From Lachnospiraceae bacterium (GTDB taxonomy: Bacteria; Bacillota; Clostridia; Lachnospirales; Lachnospiraceae): a DNA stretch of 64,000 bases. A program made the translations under genes and the position numbers. Shown here one piece after another: positions 6,597 to 17,955 of this stretch. Below the pieces are notes generated by a model. It searched no databases. It saw only the letters and a list, made by a program, of their open reading frames with translations, and had not been told where the DNA came from. Where the stretch lies: positions 1-64,000 of the forward strand of contig JAFUIR010000005.1 of NCBI GenBank assembly GCA_017468395.1. The letters run 5' to 3'. Every line of letters begins with the position of its first letter. Positions within the stretch are counted from its first letter, which is position 1.

Positions 6597-8654
<2,058 letters not shown>

Positions 8655-14844: not shown

Positions 14845-14888
14845 AAATAAAAAACGGTCCGAAGATAATAAATTACCTTCGGAACCGT
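14845..14888 (-). terminator. Terminator of the pflB operon
   Basis: On the minus strand, a stem of 11 bp with one bulged base (14854-14864 with 14877-14888) is followed by a TTTTTTATTT tail. It separates the three-gene pyruvate formate-lyase unit from pflA. Confidence 0.85.
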
Positions 14889-14922: not shown

Positions 14923-15168
14923 CTAGATGCTTTCGTGGAAAGTACGGGAGATAACGTCTGCCTGCTGTTCAGGTGTCAACTTGATGAAGTTAACAGCGTA
15001 TCCGCTTACACGGATTGTCAGCTGAGGATAGTTCTCGGGATGTTTCTGAGCATCCAGTAACATATCTCTGTTCAGTACGTTTACGTTCAGGTGATGACCA
15101 CCTTTAATTGCATAACCATCTAATAAAGATACCAGGTTATTAACCTGAGCCTGATTTACTTCTGCCAT
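14923..15168 (-). CDS. Pyruvate formate-lyase glycyl-radical subunit (detached C-terminal domain)
   Basis: The 81-aa protein corresponds to the last segment of canonical [23 protein letters not shown], then [20 protein letters not shown] and RVSGYAVNF, with Gly56 as the radical site. It resembles GrcA/YfiD, the autonomous glycyl-radical cofactor. The difference is that the adjacent large subunit stops just before this domain, so this protein is expected to be an obligate subunit. A strong SD (AGGAGG) and ATG mark it as a real gene. It is third in the operon, followed by a terminator. Confidence 0.9.
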
Positions 15169-15200
15169 TTCTAGGTCCTCCTATTTTAATCAATACTTCT

Positions 15201-15404
15201 TTAGTTATAATCGTCTAGTCCCTGTTCAAGGGTGGGAACACTGCATGCCAGAGGAGTTCTGGAACAATCAGAACAGCCCATGGTCTGAACTTCTTTTGCT
15301 TTTGTACTTTCGGTGTCGAATTCGATGTTTACGTGACCGACACCCTGTGTCATGCCTGCATCAAGCATCTTCACCAAATCGTCAATCATTGCCTTTTGGT
15401 CCAT
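15201..15404 (-). CDS. Degenerate PFL C-terminal-domain paralogue, Cys-rich tail
   Basis: The protein has 67 aa. Residues 8-32 (DDLVKMLDAGMTQGVGHVNI) align with the [20 protein letters not shown] stretch of the glycyl-radical subunit encoded 32 bp downstream. The second half lacks the RVSGYA radical loop and instead has a tail with CSDC and a further Cys (TPLAC). SD AGAAAGGAGC precedes the ATG. It lies between the large and radical subunits, so it may be a structural or regulatory third chain, or a redox-sensitive plug. I infer homology from the hinge motif only. Confidence 0.7.
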   Translation of the reverse strand: MDQKAMIDDLVKMLDAGMTQGVGHVNIEFDTESTKAKEVQTMGCSDCSRTPLACSVPTLEQGLDDYN

Positions 15405-15428
15405 AAGTGCTCCTTTCTGATTAGAGAA

Positions 15429-17468
15429 TTAGTTGTTTAAATCTAATTCGATATCGCCTGCGAATACCTGATCTTCTTTGCCAAGTGCTCCGGGGATGAT
15501 AGTGAAGGTATTGGAAATACCATCCTGTGCATCCTTGAAAGGAAGTTTGGATACGGAAGACAGAGATGCTACTGCACCATGTGTATCACGTCCGTGCATA
15601 GGGTTAGCACCGGGAGCGAAAGGCTGGCCTTTCTTACGTCCGTCAGGTGTGTTACCTGTTGCTTTACCATAAGTTACGTTAGAAGTAATGGTAAGGATGG
15701 AAGTGGTAGGGATACCGTTTCTGTAGGTATGATGTCTTCTGATAGCGGTCATGAATTTATGAACGATATCCTGAGCAATCAAGTCTACGCGGTCATCATC
15801 GTTACCGTATTTAGGGAAGTCACCTGTTGTCTTGAAGTCAACGATAACGCCGTCTTCATCACGAACAACTTCAACTTTTGCATATTTGATAGCAGACAGG
15901 GAGTCAGCTACAATAGACAGACCTGCAACACCGGTTGCGAAGTAACGTTTAACGTCTCTGTCATGAAGAGCCATTTCTGCTCTTTCGTAGCAGTATTTGT
16001 CATGCATATAGTGGATGATGTTCAGAGTGTTTACATATACATCTGCCTGCCACTCAATCATATCCATGAATTTGCTGTATACATCATCGTAATCCAGAAC
16101 ATCGCCTTCAACAGCGCGGTATTTAGGACCAACCTGTTTCTTGGTAACCTCGTCAACACCGCCGTTCAGAGCATACAGCAGACATTTTGCAAGGTTTGCA
16201 CGAGCACCGAAGAACTGCATTTCTTTACCGATTACCATGGAGGATACGCAGCAAGCGATACCGTAGTCATCGCCGTGGTCGATTCTCATCAGGTCGTCGT
16301 TTTCGTACTGGATGGAAGAAGTCAGGATAGACATCTTAGCACAGTATTTTTTGAAGTTCTCAGGAAGTCTTGTAGACCACAGAACTGTCAGGTTGGGCTC
16401 GGGTGAAGCACCAAGGTTTGTCAGAGTGTGGAGATAACGGAAGGACATCTTGGAAACAAGGTGACGACCATCAACACCAACACCAGCCAAAGACTCTGTT
16501 ACCCATACAGGGTCACCAGCGAAGATCTGGTTGTATTCAGGTGTACGAGCGAATTTGATGCAACGCAGTTTCATAATGAAATGGTCAACAAATTCCTGGA
16601 TTTCGGACTCTGTGAAAGTACCGTTTGCAAGGTCTCTTTCAGCGAAGCAGTCAAGGAATGTGGATGTACGTCCAAGGGACATAGCAGCACCATTCTGCTC
16701 TTTAACTGCACACAGATATCCGAAGTAAGTAGCCTGAATAGCTTCTTTTACGTTTGTAGCAGGTTTGGAAATGTCGCAACCATAGGAAGCAGCCATTTCT
16801 TTCATCATCTTCAGAGCAACGATCTGCTCGGAGATTTCTTCACGAAGACGGATAATATCGTCTGTCATAACACGTCCTGTAGAGTTTTTCTGATCAAGTT
16901 TGTCTTCGATCAGTCTGTCGATACCGTACAGAGCAACACGTCTGTAGTCGCCGATGATACGTCCACGACCATATGCATCAGGAAGACCTGTGATGATGTG
17001 GGAAGAACGGCAAGCTCTCATCTCATCGTTATAAGCATCGAAACAACCTGCGTTGTGTGTTTTTCTGTGAGTAGAGAAGAATTCGCTGATTTCAGCGTCA
17101 ACTTCGTATCCGTTATCGGAGCAAGCTTTTTCAGCCATTCTGATACCGCCGTAAGGCTGCAGGGAACGTTTGAAAGGCTTGTCTGTCTGGAAACCTACGA
17201 TAGTTTCTTTGTTTTTGTCAAGGTAACCGGGACCGTGAGAAGTGATTGTGGAAACAACTTTTGTGTCCATATCAAGAACACCGCCTGCTTCACGCTCTTT
17301 CTTCTGGAGTTCAAGTACCATGCTCCATAAATCTTTTGTGTTTTGTGTAGCTTCGGCTAAGAAGGAATCATCGCCATCATAGGGATGGTAGTTTTTCTGG
17401 ATGAAATCACGTACGTTGATTTCACTTTCCCATTTGCCGCCTACAAAATCTTTCCATTCTGGTCTCAT
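15429..17468 (-). CDS. pflB: Formate C-acetyltransferase large subunit lacking the glycyl-radical domain
   Basis: The protein has 679 aa, against about 740-760 for usual [23 protein letters not shown] begins the conserved N-terminus. The active-site pair Cys406-Cys407 lies in [11 protein letters not shown], and the chain runs in register to [17 protein letters not shown], then ends with a short acidic tail. The C-terminal glycine loop is missing and is encoded at 14923-15168. It converts pyruvate and CoA to acetyl-CoA and formate. ATG 17468 has AGGAGG upstream and begins the homology; the in-frame codons further upstream overlap the promoter. Confidence 0.95.
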
Positions 17469-17542
17469 TTTGAAATAGCCTCCTGTTATTATTTGAATTA
17501 GGTTGATTATTAGTAAATAAATTTTGCTAATCCTATGAGACA

Positions 17543-17571
17543 ATTATATGAAAAAGGGGTATAAACGTCAA
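17543..17571 (-). promoter_or_regulatory. Promoter of the pflB operon
   Basis: On the minus strand, -35 is TTGACG (17566-17571), with a 17-bp spacer and a consensus -10 TATAAT (17543-17548). It is a strong sigma-A type promoter with a leader of about 70 nt. Confidence 0.8.
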
Positions 17572-17763: not shown

Positions 17764-17955
17764 ATGGCAGAGATTACAAAGGAAATGACAATCGGAGAAA
17801 TCCTGAGAACAAAACCTGAGGTTGCCCCGGTTCTTTTGGACATGGGAATGCATTGTCTGGGATGTCCTTCAGCACAGATGGAATCTTTGGAGCAGGCAGC
17901 AATGGTTCACGGAATGGATATTGATGTGTTGATGTCAAAAATCAACGCTCTGTAA
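17764..17955 (+). CDS. DUF1858 domain-containing protein
   Basis: The protein has 63 aa: [20 protein letters not shown], then [19 protein letters not shown]. This is the DUF1858 fold with a CxxC pair at residues 36-39, found alone or at the N-terminus of hybrid-cluster and related redox proteins. It probably binds a metal or Fe-S cluster, or acts in redox sensing. Strong SD AAGGAGG. It is divergently transcribed from pflB, which hints at a link with anaerobic metabolism, but no partner gene is adjacent. Confidence 0.9.

Follow-up and report, generated by a model that had tools for sequence, protein, structure and literature searches.

In glycyl radical enzymes the catalytic chain normally contains the radical glycine itself, and the entire enzyme is lost when oxygen damages it. 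Two of these enzymes, benzylsuccinate synthase and 4-hydroxyphenylacetate decarboxylase, carry small cysteine-bearing accessory subunits of HiPIP-like fold with iron-sulfur (Fe-S) clusters, each cluster held by four cysteine ligands; their large chains retain the radical glycine. For pyruvate formate-lyase (PFL; PflB, TIGR01255; PDB 1h16 in Escherichia coli), a stand-alone version of the radical domain exists in E. coli as GrcA (YfiD; PDB 6owr, TIGR04365), which repairs PFL that oxygen has cleaved. Here we describe the pfl locus of a 64,000-nucleotide (nt) stretch of Lachnospiraceae DNA (positions 1 to 64,000 of contig JAFUIR010000005.1, assembly GCA_017468395.1; referred to below as the window), in which a large PFL chain stops short of the radical domain and is followed by two small genes, one for a 67-amino-acid (aa) protein that we call mid and one for an 81-aa radical protein, GrcA3. 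From gene content and its conservation, it is probable that these genes encode a heteromeric PFL in which GrcA3 serves as a replaceable radical subunit essential for activity, and in which a cysteine element, carried by mid or by a tail of the large chain in other lineages, docks, holds or gates GrcA3.

The nearest experimental parallel is an engineered one. The excerpts of PMC8683613 report that the PFL-activating enzyme produced no detectable activation of free YfiD, and that cleaved PFL permits its activation to the wild-type level. Residues 696-733 of E. coli PFL are described there as a recognition element critical for YfiD binding, and PFL cut back to residue 695 gave no measurable binding of YfiD and 32-fold lower activation. 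This shortfall was partly relieved when YfiD lacked its N-terminal extension, with 5.4-fold better activation than in its presence. Once activated with YfiD or truncated YfiD in vitro, PFL 1-695 was as active as the wild type. This pair resembles the locus described here in being a PFL in two parts; as far as the same excerpts go, it differs in being engineered, in binding too weak to measure, in poor activation and in having no mid.

The small radical protein is already known as the NCBIfam family GrcA3 (NF038360); the split and mid are new, as far as the open-licence literature shows. Among the matches listed from open-licence articles in PMC, there was no account of a split PFL, of GrcA3 by name or of mid, and in the excerpt of PMC11528403 the word "split" refers only to electron paramagnetic resonance lines. 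Two entries titled Formate acetyltransferase in the 2026 copy of the PDB are closer to our subject: 38la ends at LGKED (chain end 687), whereas 38lb continues past LGK into a tail with cysteines, ALGKSGNVMFGECDMCEMKELDDV, and did not appear in the radical-domain matches. By its sequence, 38lb is a probable split PFL chain, and the two entries indicate that split PFLs are probably already under study. Of separate radical-domain chains, the PDB search matched E. coli GrcA (6owr) alone, and it yielded no chain resembling mid.

Composition of the split locus

Like ordinary PflB, the large chain scores above the equivalog cut-off of TIGR01255 (1081 bits; cut-off 994), has a PflA gene adjoining its operon, and carries in its PFL catalytic domain the cysteine pair that aligns with C418/C419 of E. 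coli PFL, the active-site cysteines according to published abstracts. It differs in that the radical domain lies on a separate gene. The match to TIGR01255 covers profile positions 2-665 of 744, so that about 79 final positions, and with them a radical glycine in cis, are absent. A sequence-only reading of this DNA had already recognized the division between a large chain and a separate 81-aa radical protein, and the alignments bear it out. The same reading had the large chain ending right after GALGKED; it runs 13 residues further, and the loss of the final segment stands. That reading had also named a full-length PFL elsewhere in the genome as an observation that would speak against it. A profile search with PF02901 gave one match in the genome, the large chain, and no second PFL-like chain was found in this 92.7% complete assembly.

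Residues 6-80 of GrcA3 align with residues 679-758 of E. coli PFL, with the RVSGYA loop falling at Gly734. The protein scores 158 bits against NF038360 (cut-off 158) and 156.9 bits, below the cut-off, in the genome search; it contains no cysteine. It is encoded, as proposed, by a gene of its own, with an AGGAGG Shine-Dalgarno (SD)-like site and out of frame with the large chain. Mid is in the frame of the large chain, whose ATG start is preceded by AGGAGG. On the minus strand the order is large, mid, GrcA3 and pflA, with gaps of 24, 32 and 281 nt (Table 1). Mid, likewise conserved, escaped the sequence-only reading, which had two genes; in other lineages a cysteine tail on the large chain accompanies the split instead. 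The median ratio of nonsynonymous to synonymous substitution rates (dN/dS) is 0.039 for the large chain, indicating strong purifying selection, and 0.039 for GrcA3.

Like E. coli GrcA, with which it aligns over 62 residues, GrcA3 is a radical domain that stands alone and carries RVSGYA. However, it lacks the disordered N-terminal extension of about 60 aa, its PFL match beginning at residue 6, and it adjoins the gene for a large chain; moreover, neither its genome nor 53 of the 56 split draft genomes described below yielded a full-length PFL for it to rescue. The partners differ as well, as cleaved E. coli PFL keeps residues 696-733 and the split large chain does not. In terms of gene content, the small protein is GrcA-like yet stands outside the setting that defines GrcA, that of a full-length PFL to rescue. 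The name of NF038360 implies an optional cofactor, whereas gene content here implies an obligatory subunit. The split system should work like PFL, with its radical glycine supplied otherwise than in cis.

Distribution of the split

We searched 150 genomes of the window's family (Lachnospiraceae; the window's own genome is G000), 398 of its phylum and 196 of its order. In the family sample, TIGR01255 at 1e-200 matched 114 genomes; with G034 and G089 left out for partial PFL matches, 112 had a near-complete match. The chain is truncated in 56 of these and fused to its radical domain in 59, 3 genomes having both forms and 53 the truncated form only. The profile match ends mostly at positions 663-677 in truncated chains and at 742-744 in fused ones; the matches of G099 and G110 continue through the stop into mid, and G061 and G042 were scored in part and their tails inspected. 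The 56 truncated-PFL genomes carry 56 different genus labels. Stand-alone GrcA3, defined as an open frame of <150 aa (which excludes 156- and 183-aa frames in G034 and G142), is present in at least 60 of the 150 genomes and, among the matches listed, in all 56 truncated-chain genomes versus none of the 56 fused-only genomes. Four genomes (G022, G060, G128 and G129) have it without a listed PFL match, and in G022 and G060 the end of a truncated chain lies near a contig edge. Mid was found in 39 of the 150 genomes, including 34 of the 56 with a truncated chain and none of the fused-only genomes. Truncated chains with separate radical proteins, for which the sequence-only reading had proposed a search across Lachnospiraceae, are thus widespread in the family. 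Because 53 of the 112 family genomes hold a truncated PFL only, the separate radical protein is very probably essential for PFL activity, as had been suggested.

In the phylum sample, a clear stand-alone GrcA3 was found, among the matches listed, only in G000 and G371, both members of the family; G351 (110 aa, 79 bits), G176 (198 aa) and G347 (252 aa) were excluded as weaker or longer frames. The resulting impression that the split is restricted to one family was overturned by the order sample, in which at least 26 genomes have a stand-alone GrcA3, 8 of them in the window's family and 18 in three others (f150, f160 and f147); G722 (94 aa, 129 bits) was left out as fused-type by score. The split thus belongs to an order-level lineage rather than to one family. 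Among the best 80 of 274 loci encoding a relative in a named collection, 73 hold the large chain, mid and GrcA3 together, and the other 7 lose the large chain or GrcA3 at a contig end. Most of these 80 loci are titled Lachnospiraceae or Acetatifactor; about 10 bear other names, some of them probably wrong. Acetatifactor muris DSM 23669 (locus L120) is a cultured carrier. The best match in a phage collection, MT838895.1 (L226), is filed as a bacteriophage; next to GrcA3 it encodes malic enzyme, PflA and a split PFL whose large chain ends in a cysteine tail. This gene content is that of bacterial DNA, and for this record we rejected the idea of a phage-borne GrcA3.

Some genomes hold more than one radical protein. 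A PF01228 search of G000 detected two stand-alone radical proteins, that of the window and one on contig C25, plus the end of the large chain in part. The second 81-aa GrcA3 gene (C25:238121-238354; positions 8113-8358 of locus L005) has no PFL frame in the 16 kb inspected around it. Two stand-alone copies are present in at least 9 of the 56 split genomes of the family, and no PFL frame was found in the 7.5-16 kb near the second copy in G000, G064, G080, G041, G112, G144 and G031. The second copy is possibly a true spare part. A variant loop, RISGYA, is carried by the GrcA3 of locus L175.

Mid and its interchange with a cysteine tail

Judged by its sequence, mid is a previously undescribed protein without a Pfam family. 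A direct search gave no Pfam match, and its best NCBIfam match is GrcA3 at a sub-threshold 14.9 bits. Profile-profile comparison (hhalign) of mid with GrcA3 gave a probability of 96% and an E value of 4e-9 over 31 columns; the N-terminal half of mid matches the first half of the radical domain, around residues 677-712 of E. coli PFL, and in the phylum sample the mid profile also picks up fused PFLs, in their C-terminal part (E about 1e-4). Homology to the PF01228 domain is confined to this first half in the hhalign comparison. The RVSGYA loop is not in mid, and a cysteine element occupies its place. Residues C47, A53, C54, P57 and L59 are invariant in 17 aligned rows, the window copy having three cysteines, and the median dN/dS of 0.096 over 51 pairs of relatives indicates purifying selection. 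In the window copy Cys54 stands at the register of the radical glycine, 30 residues past a shared histidine; the spacing varies among homologues, and we rejected this correspondence.

Among the 56 split systems of the family, 34 have mid, 21 have a two-cysteine tail on the large chain, none has both and one has neither. Mid lies beside the other genes of the operon in 33 of the 34 and on another contig in G002. The 18 split systems of other families comprise 13 with mid, 4 with a tail and 1 with neither, giving 47 with mid, 25 with a tail of at least two cysteines, 0 with both and 2 with neither over all 74 (Fisher p 1e-17 for the exclusion, with rows that are not independent and kinship ignored). 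Against the C-terminal profile of mid, 13 of the 21 family tails outscored 499 or more of their own 500 shuffled versions.

With tails removed, 96 large chains give a tree in which all 74 split rows, together with 5 that are fused, make up a single clade (Shimodaira-Hasegawa-like approximate likelihood ratio test, 100); the tree has 3 changes between split and fused and 11 between mid and tail. Six fused rows (G054, G078, G008, G132f, G119f and G102) that did not fit the sequence patterns used were dropped before the trees, five of them representing a divergent fused subtype. Most simply, these chains would have undergone one split and then two re-fusions. A clade of the 56 family split rows without the re-fused rows was rejected (approximately unbiased test, p-AU 0.017), which is consistent with re-fusions lying inside the split clade. 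In the re-fused clade of G011, G074, G108 and G143, the linker is short and cysteine-free, and mid was not matched. The other re-fusion, G096 (L227, G096:C26), is a single 774-aa frame made up of the large chain, the cysteine stretch TCGCEEVTC and GrcA3. As far as gene content goes, our comparisons show a conserved split whose parts co-occur and in which mid and tail interchange, the pattern expected if a separate radical domain, and for the most part only a separate one, required mid or tail.

Proposed mechanism and alternatives

A large chain without a radical glycine must get one in trans, and GrcA3 is the genome's candidate. We propose that the large chain would provide the barrel and the two active-site cysteines, and that GrcA3 would provide the radical glycine, in the position that the covalent domain takes up in ordinary PFL; an essential GrcA3 and this canonical docking are the more strongly inferred parts of the proposal. 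PflA would install the radical on GrcA3. In the excerpts of PMC8683613, YfiD was not activated without cleaved PFL, which suggests that activation here occurs on the complex, and the activity of the cut-back E. coli enzyme once activated indicates that a PFL in two parts can work. With the radical on an 81-aa protein, a subunit cleaved by oxygen could be swapped without remaking the 679-aa chain. Such replacement after damage is less strongly indicated, as are the parts that we assign to mid. Mid, or the tail in other lineages, most likely helps to dock, hold or gate GrcA3, and its conserved cysteine pair may act as a redox or metal-binding switch. The region corresponding to 696-733 is absent from the split large chain, and the N-terminal half of mid is homologous to part of it. 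Tail lineages hold the cysteine part only, so the cysteines may be the essential part.

A more specific version, which we put forward tentatively, sees mid as a relic of the lost covalent radical domain that has become a cysteine-gated placeholder and a dock for loading and activating fresh GrcA3. Mid would then fill the radical-domain site while GrcA3 is absent or damaged. If so, the split PFL would be a genetically fixed form of the oxygen-cleaved, YfiD-repaired E. coli enzyme, in that both hold two copies of a segment.

Several observations weigh against the heteromeric enzyme with a docking cysteine element. The window's assembly is incomplete, and a fused PFL could sit in the missing part of it, as in that of the other draft genomes counted. 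AlphaFold2 models of the large chain with mid from the window and of the large chain, mid and GrcA3 from L130 reached mean predicted local distance difference test scores of 40.3 and 38.6, respectively, on shallow alignments of close relatives, and lend no support to docking. The mids of G012 (L089) and G026 (L103) end after CxxC, before the second invariant cysteine, and the split PFLs of G130 (L098) and G725 (L260) are those with neither mid nor a two-cysteine tail. Eight of the 21 family tails, mostly of the DCACCEP type, fail the shuffle test against the C-terminal profile of mid. The tree offers 3 independent mid/tail contrasts on well-supported branches; nearly all random pairings go the expected way, but the sign test is not significant. 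According to the excerpts of PMC8683613, the two-part E. coli enzyme is active without mid, so mid need not take part in catalysis. Finally, the tails lack the helix-strand half of mid, and the idea of mid as a recognition element therefore covers the mid lineages only.

We consider it rather unlikely that mid or the tail, instead of docking GrcA3, is an accessory subunit that binds metal or an Fe-S cluster and adjusts how thiyl or glycyl radicals form, in the manner of the beta and gamma subunits of benzylsuccinate synthase. Benzylsuccinate synthase does share with the split PFL a small cysteine-bearing accessory protein, and the excerpts of PMC12590467 report that its [4Fe-4S] subunit BSSbeta promotes thiyl radical formation. 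In addition, 72 of the 74 split systems have at least two cysteines in mid or tail. However, a [4Fe-4S] cluster within a single chain needs more than the two cysteines that are invariant in 17 mids, and even the three of the window copy fall short of the four ligands in Fe-S accessory subunits. Mid had no PDB match to such a subunit, its two matches (E 0.56 and 1.8) both being kinases, and its N-terminal half is radical-domain-like.

We are also doubtful of a scheme in which docking needs only GrcA3 and the large chain, and mid is a cysteine redox sensor whose oxidized dithiol releases or blocks GrcA3 when oxygen enters. The cysteine pair is the feature common to mid and tails, GrcA3 itself has no cysteine, and a second stand-alone GrcA3 occurs in a number of split genomes. 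A sensor of this kind nevertheless leaves the radical-domain-like half of mid unexplained, and a nearby dithiol protein (see below) is conserved in close relatives only.

It is very improbable that GrcA3 is a mere spare part as in E. coli, with the large chain inactive or otherwise used and another enzyme cleaving pyruvate. The NCBIfam name "autonomous glycyl radical cofactor" and the likeness to E. coli GrcA/YfiD (6owr) point that way, but 53 of 56 split genomes yielded no full-length PFL to rescue, and the large chain keeps its cysteine pair, exceeds the TIGR01255 cut-off and is under strong purifying selection. A lone split gene in one draft genome would suggest a sequencing, assembly or gene-decay artifact, but the probability of this, already judged low in the sequence-only reading, is negligible given the recurrence of the layout in 56 family genomes with 56 genus labels, in 73 of the best 80 loci and in at least 18 genomes of three other families, and given a separate SD-like site for each of the large chain, mid and GrcA3 in the window.

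If the heteromeric enzyme is real, an entire clade of anaerobes, including many that record titles assign to animal guts, would seem to hold the radical part of PFL as a small subunit accompanied by a new cysteine protein. Such a clade would offer a natural system for radical-subunit exchange, activation in trans and recovery from oxygen. The heteromeric reading would also correct current annotation, which files the large chain under ordinary PFL, treats GrcA3 as an optional cofactor and gives mid no family.

Neighboring features and additional arrangements

The hairpin between GrcA3 and pflA (Table 1) has a fold z-score of -6.55, and 0 of 200 shuffles were equally stable. As it separates GrcA3 from pflA, the large, mid and GrcA3 genes look like one transcript. 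A promoter-like sequence lies upstream of the large chain; the region overall holds 8 promoter-like sites versus a shuffle mean of 9.9 and so shows no excess.

Table 1. Features of the split pfl locus and its surroundings, in window coordinates
Feature	Positions	Strand	Basis
Large PFL subunit, 679 aa, no glycyl-radical domain, TAA stop	15429..17468	minus	TIGR01255 match; only PF02901 match of the genome
Cysteine pair C406-C407 of large chain	16248..16253	minus	Aligned to CC of E. coli PFL, C418/C419 (1h16)
mid, 67-aa putative accessory protein; N-terminal half radical-domain-like, C-terminal half cysteine element	15201..15404	minus	hhalign, conservation, dN/dS
Cysteine element of mid, residues 44-59 (CSDCSRTPLACSVPTL)	15228..15275	minus	Alignment
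GrcA3, 81-aa separate glycyl-radical subunit	14923..15168	minus	NF038360 match; aligned with residues 679-758 of E. coli PFL
Radical loop RVSGYA, Gly56 = E. coli PFL Gly734	14995..15012	minus	Alignment
PflA, radical S-adenosylmethionine PFL-activating enzyme, 254 aa	13877..14641	minus	TIGR02493, 296 bits (cut-off 231.75)
SD-like AGGAGG of large gene	17479..17484	minus	
SD-like AAGGAG of mid	15410..15415	minus	
SD-like AGGAGG of GrcA3	15177..15182	minus	
Terminator-like hairpin with T run, between GrcA3 and pflA	14858..14883	minus	Scan and fold
Promoter-like TTGACG-17-TATAAT, upstream of large chain	17543..17571	minus	11/12 consensus letters
DUF1858/TIGR03980 redox-disulfide (dithiol) protein	17764..17955	plus	

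The DUF1858 gene is divergent from the split pfl operon. It lies upstream, on the other strand, in 43 of the 54 close-relative loci whose upstream DNA is long enough, versus 2 of 32 wider-family loci (two of which have <450 bp upstream, and for which a somewhat stricter letter pattern was used). We rejected the DUF1858 protein as a component of the system, since its presence in 2 of 32 wider loci points to local synteny. Among close relatives, the large chain of G031 is 95% identical to that of the window over 470 columns. Gene order also varies: in G130, pflA stands between the large chain and GrcA3. In G651, a second set of mid, GrcA3 and activase genes lies on a short contig (G651:C97, L263), and the same genome has a split operon with a large chain.

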